Below are positions 5,159 to 39,922 of a stretch of DNA of 44,641 nucleotides, piece by piece. The stretch's first letter is position 1. Each line of letters opens with the position of its first letter. The notes under the pieces were generated by a model that saw nothing but the letters and a program-made list of their open reading frames with translations, had not been told where the DNA came from and did no database searches. Source of the DNA: Ignavibacteriota bacterium (GTDB lineage Bacteria > Bacteroidota > Ignavibacteria > UBA10030). The DNA is taken from contig PLMK01000016.1 of NCBI GenBank assembly GCA_003142475.1, forward strand, positions 1 through 44,641, in the 5' to 3' direction. A program made the translations under genes and the position numbers.

Positions 5159-7171
5159 TCAACAGCAAACTACCGGAGTATTTTCCAGCAGACCATTGAT
5201 CTCGCTAAAGATCATTTCGTCTTCAAATAAATTTTGTTTAATAGCACCGGATGGACATGCTGCCACGCATGTACCACATCCTTTGCAGAGAGCTTCATTG
5301 ATAAATGCTTTTTGCTTTGCCTCGTCGCGTGAAATGGCATTGTAAGGACAGATTGTAAGACATGTTCGGCAGCCAGAACAATCATCTTGCACTACGAAGG
5401 CAGTGTTCGGCTCAAGCTCAATTTCGCCTGTGTCAATAAGTGTTAACGCTTGGGCAGCAGCAGCACCTGCCTGAGCAACACTATCCGGAATGTCTTTGGG
5501 TCCTTGGCAAGCACCAGCAATAAAGATACCGTCGGTAAATGTATCAACAGGAGCAAGTTTAGGATGCCGCTCTAAGAAAAAACCTTCCGTTGAGCAAGAT
5601 ATATTAAACAGACGCCGGACATCTTGCGAATCTGACTGCGGCTCCATACCAACGGCTAGTACCACCATATCCACCGGTATGCGGCGCACGATTCCGATCA
5701 TCGTATCCTCTGCGCGAATAATAAGCTTACCTTCTTCTGAAGAACGCACTGCCCAATCCGACACTTCTGCAACACGGCCTCGAATAAAGTGCACATTTTC
5801 GTCGAGCAATTTATCGTAGAACTCTTCATACGATTTTCCCGCAGCGCGAATATCGATATAAAAGTTGTACACTTCTGCCTCTGTATGCTCCTTGAGCAAA
5901 TGCGCTAATTTCAACGAATACATACAGCACGTACGTGAGCACCAACGATTCGTGTTCTTATCGCGCGAGCCAACACAGTGAATGATTCCGACAGTTTTTG
6001 GATGACGACCGTCGCGGAGAATCAACTCACCGCCTGTTGGACCCGAAGCGTTGACAAGCCGCTCCACTTCCAGCGATGTGTACACGTTGGGATATTTTCC
6101 ATAGCCGTAAAAAGGAACGCGTTTCGCATCAAACGTATGATATCCGGTCGCAAGAATGATTGTGCCGACTTCAATCTCTTTCATTTCTTCTTTCTGATTG
6201 AAATCAATTGCTTTGCGGTCGCATGCTTCAACGCAAGTTTTTTTGCATCGTCCAGATTTGAATTCTATGCAAGCTTCAGGATCAATTAACACTATTTGCG
6301 GAGTTGCCTGTGGAAATGGAATATAGACTGGCTTTCGCTTGCTTAATCCAACATTGAATTCATCTGGCGTCTTTCCTTCTTTATAAACACACTTTTCTAT
6401 GCAATCCATACAGCCGACACAGAGTTCTTCGTTTATATAGCGAGGTTTGCGTTTAATAGTGATTTTATAATTGCCTACATAGCCATCGACTTTTGTTACT
6501 TCCGAATATGTCCACAATGTGATGTTGGGATGGTTCTTCACTTGCGACATTTTCGGCGTAAGAATGCATGCCGCACAGTCGAGCGTTGGAAATGTTTTAT
6601 CAAACATCGCCATATGTCCGCCGATTGTTGGCTGTCTCTCCACTAAAAATACTTTTTTACCGGAATTTGCCAGTGTAAGCGCGGCATGAATCCCCGCAAT
6701 TCCACCGCCCACTATGAGCACGTCTGGATGTATCTTTACATGTTTTGTTTCTAATGCCTTATGATGAAACACACGCTGCACTGCAGCACGCGCAAGGTCT
6801 TTTGATTTTTCCGTGGCTGCCTTCGCATCAGTGTGTACCCATGATACATCCTCACGGATGTTTACCATCTGAAAATAATACGGGTTCAGTCCTCCTTTTT
6901 CTACAGCCGTACGAAAGGTGTGCTCATGAAGAAGCGGAGAACAAGAAGCTACAATAATACGGTTCAATGAATGCTCGTGAATATCCTTTTGGATCAGTTC
7001 CTGACCTGGATCTGAACACATATATTTATATTCACACGAGACAACGACGCCGGGCAAAGACTTAACATATTCGGCAACAGCTTTTACATCTACAATACTG
7101 GCAATGTTATGCCCACAATGACAGATATAGAATCCGATACGAACTGCTTCCTTTTGTTCGTAGTTATGCAT
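5159..7171 (-). CDS. hdrA: Heterodisulfide reductase subunit A, FAD iron-sulfur protein
   Basis: The 670-aa bifurcating flavoprotein is the core of the Mvh/Hdr complex. I chose the ATG at 7171 over an upstream in-frame start at 7240. It follows AAAGGAG at good spacing, overlaps the hdrB stop by 8 nt, and begins directly with the family N-terminus (residues about 11-22, with Cys17 and Cys19). The FAD-binding motif is VGGGIAGIHAA near residue 155. Four further cysteine-rich sites follow: CVGCMDCIEKC, GRCKKTCVEAC, and two C-terminal ferredoxin motifs, CSGCRTCLTICP and CKGCGTCVAACP. By family knowledge it splits electron pairs from H2 between ferredoxin and a disulfide at HdrB. The protein ends in Cys-Cys. 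Confidence 0.95.
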   Translation of the reverse strand: MHNYEQKEAVRIGFYICHCGHNIASIVDVKAVAEYVKSLPGVVVSCEYKYMCSDPGQELIQKDIHEHSLNRIIVASCSPLLHEHTFRTAVEKGGLNPYYFQMVNIREDVSWVHTDAKAATEKSKDLARAAVQRVFHHKALETKHVKIHPDVLIVGGGIAGIHAALTLANSGKKVFLVERQPTIGGHMAMFDKTFPTLDCAACILTPKMSQVKNHPNITLWTYSEVTKVDGYVGNYKITIKRKPRYINEELCVGCMDCIEKCVYKEGKTPDEFNVGLSKRKPVYIPFPQATPQIVLIDPEACIEFKSGRCKKTCVEACDRKAIDFNQKEEMKEIEVGTIILATGYHTFDAKRVPFYGYGKYPNVYTSLEVERLVNASGPTGGELILRDGRHPKTVGIIHCVGSRDKNTNRWCSRTCCMYSLKLAHLLKEHTEAEVYNFYIDIRAAGKSYEEFYDKLLDENVHFIRGRVAEVSDWAVRSSEEGKLIIRAEDTMIGIVRRIPVDMVVLAVGMEPQSDSQDVRRLFNISCSTEGFFLERHPKLAPVDTFTDGIFIAGACQGPKDIPDSVAQAGAAAAQALTLIDTGEIELEPNTAFVVQDDCSGCRTCLTICPYNAISRDEAKQKAFINEALCKGCGTCVAACPSGAIKQNLFEDEMIFSEINGLLENTPVVCC

Positions 7172-35888: not shown

Positions 35889-35925
35889 AAAAAAAACCAA
35901 CCACCTTCGCGCAGAAGATGGTTGG
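35889..35925 (-). terminator. Terminator of pilin copy 2
   Basis: A stem CCAACCA (35897-35903) with TGGTTGG (35919-35925) is extended by an inner CTTC/GAAG pair. On the minus strand it is followed by eight T residues (35896-35889). It is closely similar to the hairpin after copy 1. Confidence 0.85.
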
Positions 35926-35965
35926 GATGAGAGCAGAAACTTCTATGTCTTTGTAGATGTAGAGG

Positions 35966-36361
35966 TTACTGGAAGTTACCCGTAAAAGAACTAAAAGTTA
36001 CTTTTCCAGAATTGTTTACAGCACCTACAACCTTACTTGGGGTAGCTTGTGTTACACTTGTTCCCGTAAACGTAACCAACGCGGCACCTACAGCAGCTGT
36101 GTACGTTGCATTATCATTAGATGACAATTTATACGGAATTGTATAACCATTTCCACCTGTATAGGATCCACCACCACCAGCCATAGAAACCGGTCGAATG
36201 TAAAATTGATATGCATTTGCGGCAAGGTTGTTTATATCGTTTATCATTGCATCTTTGTTTGACTGAACGCTTTGCGCGCTAAACAGGCTCAATCCAACGG
36301 CAATTGCGATACCGACAATGATAACACCGAGGATGATAAGTAATAATTGTTGTTGTCCTAT
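35966..36361 (-). pseudogene. Pilin-like protein copy 2, start codon ATG changed to ATA
   Basis: This copy aligns with copy 1 over all 396 nt with no gap, at a constant offset of 579 bases, and differs at only seven positions. One difference turns the ATG into ATA. Another changes a single residue (Asn for Asp near the C-terminus). The rest are silent. The Shine-Dalgarno (GAGGA) and the 5' leader are kept. No other ATG or GTG would retain the hydrophobic helix; a TTG at 36292 would remove it. Either this copy is not translated, or it uses ATA at low efficiency. Silent bias among so few changes is weak evidence for recent selection. Confidence 0.7.
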
Positions 36362-36463
36362 AAAAAATCCTCTAGTAAAATGTCGTAGATTTTATTTTTT
36401 AAAGCCTATTTTTTAACTTATCTCAAGTATTTTTTGAATAAAGACATCGTGCAACTCGTTCTT

Positions 36464-36501
36464 AAAAAAAACCCAACCACTTTCGCTAGAAAATGGTTGG
36501 G
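36464..36501 (-). terminator. Terminator of pilin copy 1
   Basis: CCCAACCA (36472-36479) pairs with TGGTTGGG (36494-36501). On the minus strand it is followed by an eight-T run at 36471-36464. The hairpin and the flanking GATGAGAGCAGAAACTTCT are shared with copy 2, so the duplicated unit included the terminator. Confidence 0.88.
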
Positions 36502-36544
36502 ATGAGAGCAGAAACTTCTTTCTACGCCTTTGTGGGCAGAGAGG

Positions 36545-36940
36545 TTACTGGAAGTTGCCCGTAAAAGAACTAAAAGTTACTTTTCCGGAATTGTCTACAG
36601 CACCTACAACCTTACTTGGGGTAGCTTGTGTTACACTTGTTCCCGTAAACGTAACCAACGCGGCACCTACAGCAGCTGTGTACGTTGCATTATCATTAGA
36701 TGACAATTTATACGGAATTGTATAACCATTTCCACCTGTATAGGATCCACCACCACCAGCCATAGAAACTGGTCGAATGTAAAATTGATATGCATTTGCG
36801 GCAAGGTTGTTTATATCGTTTATCATTGCATCTTTGTTTGACTGAACGCTTTGTGCGCTAAACAGGCTCAATCCAACGGCAATTGCGATACCGACAATGA
36901 TAACGCCGAGGATGATAAGTAATAATTGTTGTTGTCCCAT
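36545..36940 (-). CDS. Small type IV pilin-like protein, copy 1
   Basis: The 131-aa product has a two-residue leader (MG) directly before QQQLLLIILGVIIVGIAIAV, a helix like the N-terminal assembly helix of type IV pilins and archaeal class III signal proteins. Glu at position 5 is absent. It continues with LAANAYQFYIRPVSMAGGGG and a short Ser/Thr/Gly-rich head rich in beta-strand residues. The ATG at 36940 has a strong TTGGAGGA site. Such tiny pilins have no room for the full globular domain. A surface filament or pseudopilin role is inferred. It has its own terminator and stands immediately upstream of copy 2. Confidence 0.7.
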   Translation of the reverse strand: MGQQQLLLIILGVIIVGIAIAVGLSLFSAQSVQSNKDAMINDINNLAANAYQFYIRPVSMAGGGGSYTGGNGYTIPYKLSSNDNATYTAAVGAALVTFTGTSVTQATPSKVVGAVDNSGKVTFSSFTGNFQ

Positions 36941-37251
36941 AAAAAATCCTCCAATAAAATGTTAGTGAAAAAGTGAATTGTATATTTTTTGTTACATTAA
37001 CTGATTTAGTATGCTATCTCCAAGTTCTATACCAATCGAATAGGGTCGAATTTTATTTGCTTTATTTGATTTTTTGCGTAAAAAGCTTCAACAACTTCTT
37101 GAAGGAGTGGAACAATTTACCGTACACAGTCAGGATGACGCAGCACAGAATTACCTTTATCTTCTTTTTATCAAATATTTCGCATTCTCAAATCAAGGTT
37201 GCTTTCTATTCTCCTCCTTTGTATCTTGGAAATATTATTAAAGAGTCTAAG

Positions 37252-37632
37252 ATGCCTGTTAAAAGGAAAAAACATATACTCGTTATAGACGATGAACCAA
37301 CTTGGCTGAAGATTACCTCACATATCCTCAAAAGCCAAGGCTATAATGTCCAGACCGCTGGAAGCGGAGCGGAAGCGTTGAAAGCATTGACAACTTTTAA
37401 ACCAGATTTGATCTTTAGTGACGTGCGAATGCCGGATATGAATGGTTTCGATCTGGTCGATAATTTAAAACGCAATCCTGCGACTTCTTCAACTCCAGTG
37501 ATATTCTTCTCTGCCATCGATGATTATGATGCCCGTAAAGTGGCACGCACGCTTGGTGCAGTCGATTATTTAATAAAGCCGTTCAATGAAGACGAAGTGA
37601 ATTCAGTTCTCTCCAAGCATTTACCCATTTAA
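37252..37632 (+). CDS. Single-domain response regulator
   Basis: The 126-aa receiver has the full set of catalytic residues: acidic pair Asp13-Asp14, phosphoacceptor Asp57 in LIFSDVRMPDMNG, Ser87 and Lys109 in YLIKPF. The frame is open for 93 codons upstream, but that part is unlike any receiver leader, so the start at 37252 is preferred. It has no output domain. It lies 67 nt before the hybrid kinase gene and may act in its phosphorelay. Confidence 0.9.
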   Translation: MPVKRKKHILVIDDEPTWLKITSHILKSQGYNVQTAGSGAEALKALTTFKPDLIFSDVRMPDMNGFDLVDNLKRNPATSSTPVIFFSAIDDYDARKVARTLGAVDYLIKPFNEDEVNSVLSKHLPI

Positions 37633-37699
37633 AAAACCTGCAATACCGTAATTTGGTTTATCGAAAATAAACCGCCCAAATATAAAGATTTTTAAAAGT

Positions 37700-39922
37700 A
37701 TGGCAAACTTCCGTAACATTCTAAAATTTCGCGCTTCTCTAGGACCGGTTGAACAAGCACAGATCGTAGCCTCTACTGCTGTGGTAGTAACCCTCGTAAC
37801 AATAGTGGTTGTGCGGCTAACGAGTGGCCACACACTTGAATTATTATTATTTGGGAGCGTTCTCACTGTAGGTGTATTTGGATTTATTATTGTCTTCTTC
37901 ACGTTAAAGTATGGACGCTTGCTTGAAGAACAAAAACAAGAATTGCTTGCATTAAACACATTTGCCGAATCTGTAAATCGTGCCATTGGTGTCCAATTTC
38001 TCCTCCACAATGCTCTCATCGAAATGAAACGCCTCCTTGATGTAGAGTACGGATGGATATTCAGTGAAGAAAATAATCAACTTGTACTCAAGGCTCTTCG
38101 TGGAGCCGAAGAATTAAATTTTTCTATCTTGGATACCTCTATCGGAATCAATCACGAAAAAATGAGATGGATTTATTCTCCTCATATTGTGAAACGGCCA
38201 AAGAAATCTGATTCAAATAAAAACTCTCCATGGGAATATGGCGTTATTGGATCATTAGCATCAGTACCGATTATGATGAAGGACCAATTGTCTGGGCTCA
38301 TTATTTTAGCAAGCAAGAATCGAGAGGCATTTTCCAACAAACAAATTGATCTAATCATGGCTTTCGCCAACCAAATCGGCATTGCAATGGAAAATGCAAT
38401 GCTCTTTGAGCAAGTTCGGAAATCGGAAGAACGCTACATCGATCTCTTTGAAAATTCACCGGATATGTCTCACATTTTTAACAAAGCTGGCATAATAATC
38501 AGTTGTAACCAAACAGAAGCGACACGATTAGGGTATAGTAAAGAGGAATTAGTTGGAAAGTCTATTCTGAAACTCTATCCACCAGAATACCAAAAAGAAG
38601 CACAACATAATCTTAATAATATTATTAATCGCAATAGTGAAATCAAGGGATTAGAGGAAAAATTCACGTCAAAAAACGGCGAATTAATTGATGTAAACAT
38701 CAACACTTCTATCATTCTGGATGAAGCTGGGCAGCCGTTGGTGCGCGCGGTAGCACGCGACATCACGGAACAGAAGAAGTTCGAAGCAAAGATCATTCAT
38801 GCTCAACGCATCGACAGCATAGGAAATCTTGCCGGTGGAATTGCTCATGACTTTAACAATATCCTCACTTCAATCCTTGGTTCCACTTCAATTATGAAGC
38901 GAAAGATGAAACATGATGATCATTGGTATCGTTTCGCTGATATTATTGAGACTGCCGCTCGACGCGGTGCCAGCCTAACACGACAGCTATTAACGTTCGC
39001 ACGCAAAAGCAATGTACAATTCCGGCCTATAGTCGTGAACGATATTATCGAAGAAACATTGCGTCTTTTCGAACGCAGTACCGATAAAACTATTCTCGTT
39101 GAAAGAATATTGACGGATGAAGTGTGCATCATTCATGGAGATGACGGACAACTTCAACAAGCATTTCTCAACTTGCTCATTAATGCTCGGGATGCCATGC
39201 CGGATGGAGGAACTATCACTGTCCAAACCAAACATAAACAAATAGAAGAGGATGTAACTGTCACACCTGAGATTCACAGAGGAGTTTATGTAGCCGTCTC
39301 CATTACCGATACCGGTGTTGGGATGGATAAGAAAACCCAACAACATATCTTCGAACCATTTTTCACGACGAAAGATGTAGGTAAAGGAACAGGATTGGGA
39401 CTTTCTGTAGTGTATGGTGTTGTCAATTCCCACAATGGTTACATTACTGTTCAAAGCGAACTAGGACAGGGCGCTGAATTTACTATGTATTTTCCAATTA
39501 TACCTGCAGGAGAATATTTGCAGCATGATGTCCAACCTTTAAAACTCGAACGCGGGAGTGAACGAGTACTAGTGATTGACGACGAAAAAGATGTTGCAGA
39601 TATTATTAGCGGAATGTTGGAAAGTCTCGGATATCAAGTGACACGTGTCGATAGCGGACAGAAAGCAATCAATCTCTTCAAAAAGAAAAAACGATTTGAC
39701 GTTGTTATTCTCGATCTCAATATGCCAAAGATGAGTGGAAAAGAAACTTTTATAAAGTTGAAGAAAATCGACCCAGATGTACGTGTAGTTATTTCCACCG
39801 GCTATGGTGACCGAGTAATAGATGCTTCACTTGGGAAAGCCGCAGGCGATACATTCCTTCAAAAACCATATCAAATTGAAGAGCTTTCCAGAATAATGCG
39901 CCTTACATTGAATCGCGATTGA
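37700..39922 (+). CDS. Membrane hybrid sensor histidine kinase (GAF-PAS-HisKA-HATPase-REC)
   Basis: The 740-aa kinase has two membrane helices (about 21-40 and 47-69) with almost no periplasmic loop. A GAF domain (about 85-235), a PAS domain (245-360) and the dimerisation domain with His383 in GGIAHDFNNILT follow. The ATPase domain has LLINARDAM, DTGVGM and GTGLGLSVVYG. A C-terminal receiver (about 625-740) has VIDDEKD and the phosphoacceptor in VVILDLNMP. The tiny extracytoplasmic part implies an intracellular or membrane signal. It probably works with the adjacent stand-alone receiver. Targets are unknown. Confidence 0.93.
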   Translation: MANFRNILKFRASLGPVEQAQIVASTAVVVTLVTIVVVRLTSGHTLELLLFGSVLTVGVFGFIIVFFTLKYGRLLEEQKQELLALNTFAESVNRAIGVQFLLHNALIEMKRLLDVEYGWIFSEENNQLVLKALRGAEELNFSILDTSIGINHEKMRWIYSPHIVKRPKKSDSNKNSPWEYGVIGSLASVPIMMKDQLSGLIILASKNREAFSNKQIDLIMAFANQIGIAMENAMLFEQVRKSEERYIDLFENSPDMSHIFNKAGIIISCNQTEATRLGYSKEELVGKSILKLYPPEYQKEAQHNLNNIINRNSEIKGLEEKFTSKNGELIDVNINTSIILDEAGQPLVRAVARDITEQKKFEAKIIHAQRIDSIGNLAGGIAHDFNNILTSILGSTSIMKRKMKHDDHWYRFADIIETAARRGASLTRQLLTFARKSNVQFRPIVVNDIIEETLRLFERSTDKTILVERILTDEVCIIHGDDGQLQQAFLNLLINARDAMPDGGTITVQTKHKQIEEDVTVTPEIHRGVYVAVSITDTGVGMDKKTQQHIFEPFFTTKDVGKGTGLGLSVVYGVVNSHNGYITVQSELGQGAEFTMYFPIIPAGEYLQHDVQPLKLERGSERVLVIDDEKDVADIISGMLESLGYQVTRVDSGQKAINLFKKKKRFDVVILDLNMPKMSGKETFIKLKKIDPDVRVVISTGYGDRVIDASLGKAAGDTFLQKPYQIEELSRIMRLTLNRD

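Follow-up and report, generated by a model that had tools for sequence, protein, structure and literature searches.

A whole bacterial order is likely to build type IV pili from leaderless major and minor subunits, with no prepilin peptidase. The window analyzed here, a 44,641-nucleotide stretch of an Ignavibacteriota genome (assembly GCA_003142475.1, contig PLMK01000016.1), carries two pilin genes in tandem, and there is good reason to regard them as an old pair encoding the major subunit of such a leaderless, peptidase-independent pilus, with copy 2 having lately been left without an ATG. The computed evidence covers the pair and its homogenization, the pilin fold predicted for its product, genes for the pilus machinery, minor pilins that also have no leader, and the lack of a recognizable A24 peptidase. 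Whereas the duplication and the ATA start are a minor case, the putative order-wide leaderless pilus without a recognizable peptidase is the larger finding. The leaderless pattern extends over the whole pilus machine, minor pilins included, which is invisible from the single window alone.

Age and probable decay of the tandem pilin genes

Both pilin genes are 131 codons long, with a start-to-start spacing of 579 (Table 1). They differ at 7 of 396 positions: one difference is in the start codon, five are silent, and the seventh gives D116N. A tandem pair of this spacing, with few and mostly silent differences and a similar terminator for each copy, was what the original prediction had described, and the sequence comparison agrees, including two strong hairpins, each with a T-run. 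Upstream of copy 2, the spacer resembles the corresponding stretch before copy 1 for about 22 bases only.

Table 1. Positions of the pilin genes and their signals in the window.
Feature	Position	Strand	Description
Copy 1, major pilin gene	36545..36940	minus	131 aa, starts MGQQQLLLIILGVIIVG..., ATG start
Copy 2 of pilin gene	35966..36361	minus	98.2% identical to copy 1, frame intact, ATA replaces ATG
Copy 1 ribosome binding site	about 36948-36952	minus	GGAGG
Copy 2 ribosome binding site	about 36369-36373	minus	AGAGG, one base weaker than GGAGG of copy 1
Copy 1 intrinsic terminator	36464..36501	minus	hairpin -19.9 kcal/mol, z -4.83, then T-run
Copy 2 intrinsic terminator	35889..35925	minus	hairpin -18.9 kcal/mol, z -4.37, then T-run
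Spacer upstream of copy 2	36362..36463	minus	homologous to its counterpart in sister species G003

The duplication had been taken for a recent one, which the comparison with a sister species of the same genus, G003, contradicts. This species has the same two pilin genes, 581 bases apart and both with ATG, and the pair has the same neighbors, among them the response regulator gene. The upstream regions of copy 1 match between the two species (Z 18), as do those of copy 2 (Z 10), whereas upstream regions of copies 1 and 2 compared within a genome reach Z 3.4 here and about 5 in G003, with no likeness beyond the ribosome binding site. The reading frames behave in the opposite way, with 98.2% identity within the genome studied here and 97.6% within G003 but 77-79% between the genomes. 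Flanks that match by position across species, together with frames that match within a genome, indicate an old pair with homogenized frames. A recently arisen pair would have a copy 2 spacer resembling the region upstream of copy 1, and this is not the case. By these comparisons, the pair is older than the split from G003 and the duplication is not recent. Gene conversion is probably the cause of the frame homogenization, judging from the pattern rather than from a tract seen directly.

Near-identical tandem pairs recur in the pilin family, several neighbors being >89% identical. Within the genus, G001, G002, and G005 are single-copy relatives, so the pair either was lost in them or arose in only part of the genus. 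The spacer of G001 was searched for a relic of copy 2 and none was found; loss there is thus indistinguishable from never having had copy 2. The upstream flank of the G004 pilin pair is unrelated to that of the pair in the window, and that pair looks like a separate duplication.

Loss of the ATG from one copy had been correctly recognized: among 132 distinct pilin family copies in the loci examined, there are 122 ATG, 5 GTG, and 4 TTG starts, and the only ATA is that of copy 2. The ribosome binding site that was said to be kept is present ahead of the ATA, weakened by one base. No in-frame ATG, GTG, or TTG occurs upstream of copy 2 before an in-frame stop, which leaves ATA as the sole start giving the full copy 2 protein. 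With G003 as the outgroup, six of the seven differences can be polarized, and all are derived in copy 2. Of the six changes outside the start codon, five are silent. Small as these numbers are, they suggest that, for most of the period since the two copies last matched, copy 2 was constrained at the protein level. The simplest reading of the sequence suggests recent silencing through loss of the start codon, copy 2 now probably being silent or made only at trace level. The odd start codon is probably minor, recent decay, and the duplication is an ordinary instance of homogenized paralogues, one of them probably decaying.

It is improbable that copy 2 is instead a functional gene that supplies a fixed minor share of subunits by low-level ATA initiation. 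The intact frame and terminator, the nearly intact ribosome binding site, and the preponderance of silent changes would suit such a gene, but copy 2 stands alone among the 132 distinct copies in having ATA, the ribosome binding site is weakened as well, and a silent bias is also expected under recent ATG loss or continuing conversion. Base-calling or assembly error is quite improbable as a source of the ATA: although this is a single-base difference in a draft assembly (81 contigs, probably metagenome-assembled like its relatives), the other differences and the differing flanks show separate assembly of the two copies. Least probable by far is the proposal, also made in the original prediction, of a silent donor for pilin variation. 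The start codon is lost, the frame is intact, and the copies seem to recombine, as in Neisseria pilE/pilS, where one copy likewise has no start. A pilE/pilS donor differs in its encoded sequence, however, whereas the proteins encoded here are nearly the same, with one residue different besides the start and no donor repertoire, so conversion would yield almost no variants; moreover, copy 2 is equipped with a ribosome binding site and a terminator of its own.

Elsewhere in the family, a pilin copy beside an intact pilC-pilB operon (L105, about 282-660) has an in-frame TAG and is likely a dead tandem copy. In another (L076, about 5957-6363), the coding sequence passes into a second frame after about 17 codons, a frameshift that is due to decay or to a sequencing error. 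On the plus strand of the window, divergent from the pilin pair, genes for a response regulator and a GAF/PAS hybrid histidine kinase occupy 36973-39922. Response regulator/histidine kinase genes adjoin the pilin in most of the loci read from the genus, and it is possible that those beside the pair regulate the pilus.

Predicted fold and N terminus of the major pilin

The pilin matches no family in Pfam, NCBIfam, or PHROGs, and sequence searches of the PDB gave weak geopilin matches only. An AlphaFold2 model was built on 78 aligned sequences, which had been selected in part by the N-terminal Gly-Gln motif. The model (pLDDT 93.2) has a helix at residues 2-55 and a four-strand sheet, that is, the long N-terminal helix and beta-sheet head of a type IV filament subunit. 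Foldseek returned no row below E 0.13 for this model, though its first row is a pilin. With VIA-align, the top match is Neisseria PilV (Z 10.8 over 88 residues, 1.9 A), and next come a Shewanella pilin (9.2), PilE (9.0), and K122-4 (8.5). Full-length PAK pilin aligns with Z 8.2 over 120 residues, and unrelated rows start from about Z 5. Judged by the predicted fold, whose nearest solved structures are pilins, the protein is a type IV pilin, as had been proposed from the letters of the window; we take it for the major subunit. The family is spread through the order, including named Ignavibacteria, Melioribacter, and Kryptonia assemblies.

A third match in the same genome (contig 61; L003 1310-1939) was rejected as a pilin gene, being lipoprotein-like with a similar C-terminal domain. 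Its C-terminal half resembles the pilin head, with 33% identity over residues 32-130, which suggests a second use of the head domain, outside the pilus.

A review of the field (PMC4471445) counts both a dedicated prepilin peptidase and a 6-26 residue leader among the features shared by type IV filament machines. In place of such a leader, ending in Gly before the helix, the pilin has its start codon and ribosome binding site directly at the helix. An in-frame stop precedes any other upstream start in 93 of 96 ATG-started pilin copies, and a strong ribosome binding site is found at 83 of 104 copies. The conserved N-terminal segment of the major pilin contains no acidic residue and hence no Glu5; this absence and the tiny N-terminal extension had both been noted correctly in the original prediction. 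Gly2 and Gln3 do not vary among the aligned pilins, a set selected in part by that motif.

Pilus machinery, minor pilins, and prepilin peptidase across the order

The machinery genes form one run on contig 51 of the same genome: PilB and PilC are encoded there together with a secretin, a PilT-family ATPase, and, at the PilM/N/O position, two further genes. The assembly ATPase and platform protein score above the cut-offs of PF00437 and PF00482, respectively; the best NCBIfam match of PilB is TIGR02538, at 412 bits and under its equivalog cut-off of 676. The secretin is truncated where the contig ends, and this fragment has 29.9 bits with PF00263 (cut-off, 27.5); the PilT-family retraction ATPase has 313 bits with TIGR01420, slightly under the cut-off of 319. 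No family match over cut-off was found for the two genes at the expected PilM/N/O place. In several relatives, the pilin gene or genes immediately adjoin pilC and pilB; close by are three more genes, whose counterparts in the genome studied here lie on contig 11. Among 98 genomes of the order, 90 have the pilin, 85 have PilC, and 84 have both, PilC without the pilin being seen in 1 genome; the Fisher p for this co-occurrence, 9e-7, treats genomes as independent and is hence overstated. A second PilB/GspE-like ATPase of 429 amino acids is encoded on contig 10 (L129 2193-3482). It is flanked by rpsP/ffh-like genes and ATP synthase-like genes, and the 6 kb read there contains neither PilC nor a pilin.

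The three genes on contig 11 are tandem minor pilin genes, and each starts directly at a hydrophobic helix, with no leader. The second, PilW-like protein has the predicted fold of GspJ/XcpW and of the Thermus pilin TTHA1219 (Z 10.5-13.2, against 4.0 for the first unrelated structure). PDB sequence searches gave nothing useful for the PilV-like alignment and only a weak match to TTHA1219 for the PilW-like one. Residue 2 of the PilW-like model aligned to residue 1 of the XcpW filament model, the first-residue ranges being approximate, and this would make the conserved Asp6 the fifth mature residue, the place of Glu5 in canonical pilins. The acidic residue is at position 6 in 14 of 22 PilW-like sequences, at 8 in 6, and at 5 and 9 in 1 each; the protein from the genome studied here has Asp at 8, not 6. 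The modeled placement of Asp6 supports leader loss in the PilW-like minor pilin.

Searches for an A24 prepilin peptidase gave no matches in the genome or its genus. Across the order, the peptidase scores above cut-off in 6 of 98 genomes, with the same search positive in 12 of 14 control genomes, and it is absent from 78 of the 84 genomes that have both the pilin and PilC. Likewise, 16 of 19 named genomes reached through loci have no peptidase, including a Melioribacter roseus assembly. The four archaeal controls are all positive for PF01478, unlike the genome studied here, and matches to A24_N (PF06750) in the genome are short, sub-threshold stretches of longer frames, which we take to be cysteine-rich zinc-finger proteins. 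Five of the six peptidase-bearing genomes have a second, canonical PilC, by a cut-off for "canonical" that was chosen after the data were seen. Where inspected, the peptidase gene mostly adjoins a canonical FSLTELMVVLVIIG prepilin, which indicates a system separate from the leaderless pilin. An isolated A24-like peptidase gene was also seen in G066 (L179 1393-2148), with no prepilin or pilus neighbors in 3.3 kb, and contig 6 of G004 (L171 7518-7955) encodes a canonical FSLTELM prepilin in a genome with no detected prepilin peptidase. From isolated genes of this kind and the G004 prepilin, the peptidase search may miss some enzymes.

The chief alternative for the N terminus is a two-residue leader, Met-Gly, cut after Gly2 by a non-A24 or highly diverged peptidase, and we consider it unlikely. 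Archaeal pilin junctions are of the G/Q type, which the invariant Gly2 and Gln3 resemble, and Gly2 is the residue a prepilin peptidase would want too. In addition, the modeled helix of the major pilin seems two to three residues longer than those of canonical mature pilins, and this structural offset of 3 would fit cleavage after Gly2 nearly as well as a leaderless reading; Met-Gly could also be removed by an enzyme from an unrelated peptidase family. However, the pilus operons contain no candidate peptidase, A24 is missing from most genomes as counted above, the minor pilins do not start with Met-Gly-Gln, so that a single enzyme would need to accept very different sites, and published leaders have 6-26 residues (PMC4471445). 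The more specific proposal of an archaeal class III leader with a matching prepilin peptidase is poorly supported, since no A24 enzyme was found in the genome, the genus, or most of the order; a subunit without leader removal fits this better. Archaeal class III pilins share the N-terminal Gly/Gln and the lack of Glu5, whereas the machinery here is bacterial and no PibD/EppA/FlaK-type peptidase was found.

It is also doubtful that these genes build a type II secretion-like pseudopilus rather than a pilus on the cell surface. In favor of a pseudopilus, the PilW-like minor pilin matches GspJ/XcpW. However, a GspJ-like fold is also known from TTHA1219, a type IV-like pilin, and a PilT-family retraction ATPase, if slightly under its cut-off, is encoded in the operon. 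The type II minor pseudopilins GspI/GspJ/GspK (XcpV/W/X) share the GspJ fold and the tandem of three genes, but the genes here have no leader and occur with a PilT-like ATPase.

Proposed assembly and relation to known systems

In the leaderless pilus that we favor, translation would start directly at the membrane helix, with no cleavable leader. At most the first Met would be removed, by ordinary methionine aminopeptidase, because Gly, Ala, Ser, or Thr is often the second residue. The helix would insert through Sec, and PilB/PilC would extract subunits into the filament without a prepilin peptidase, the main subunit assembling without Glu5 pairing. Gene conversion would keep the two copies alike.

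The common type IVa pili (PilB/PilC/PilT/PilQ with PilA-like pilins) share with this system the pilin fold, both ATPases, the platform protein, the secretin, and minor pilins. In contrast, the major and minor pilins here have no leader, the major pilin has no Glu5, and there is no A24 peptidase. With fold and machinery present and leader, peptidase, and Glu5 lacking, this does not appear to be an ordinary type IV pilus. No prior description of leaderless pilins, or of the N-terminal peptide of this pilin, was found in open-licence literature, and either a leaderless subunit or a two-residue leader would be new as far as the literature searched shows. If the leaderless reading is true, the leader would be dispensable for membrane insertion and assembly, and the prepilin peptidase would not be universal for such filaments. 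Searching for pilin genes would change as well, as leader-based tools would miss leaderless pilins, and the role of the leader could be tested by comparing two natural systems within one order.

In Melioribacter roseus, pilT, pilQ, pilB, and pilC were reported, while pilA and pilD were not found and the set was thought probably incomplete (PMC3534657). Melioribacter assemblies L096 and L109 carry the same pilin family as the window. In contrast to the published reading, a candidate for the missing pilA is identified here and pilD appears unnecessary. From these sequences, we conclude that a leaderless, peptidase-independent pilus would account for the failure to find pilA and pilD in the Melioribacter genome.
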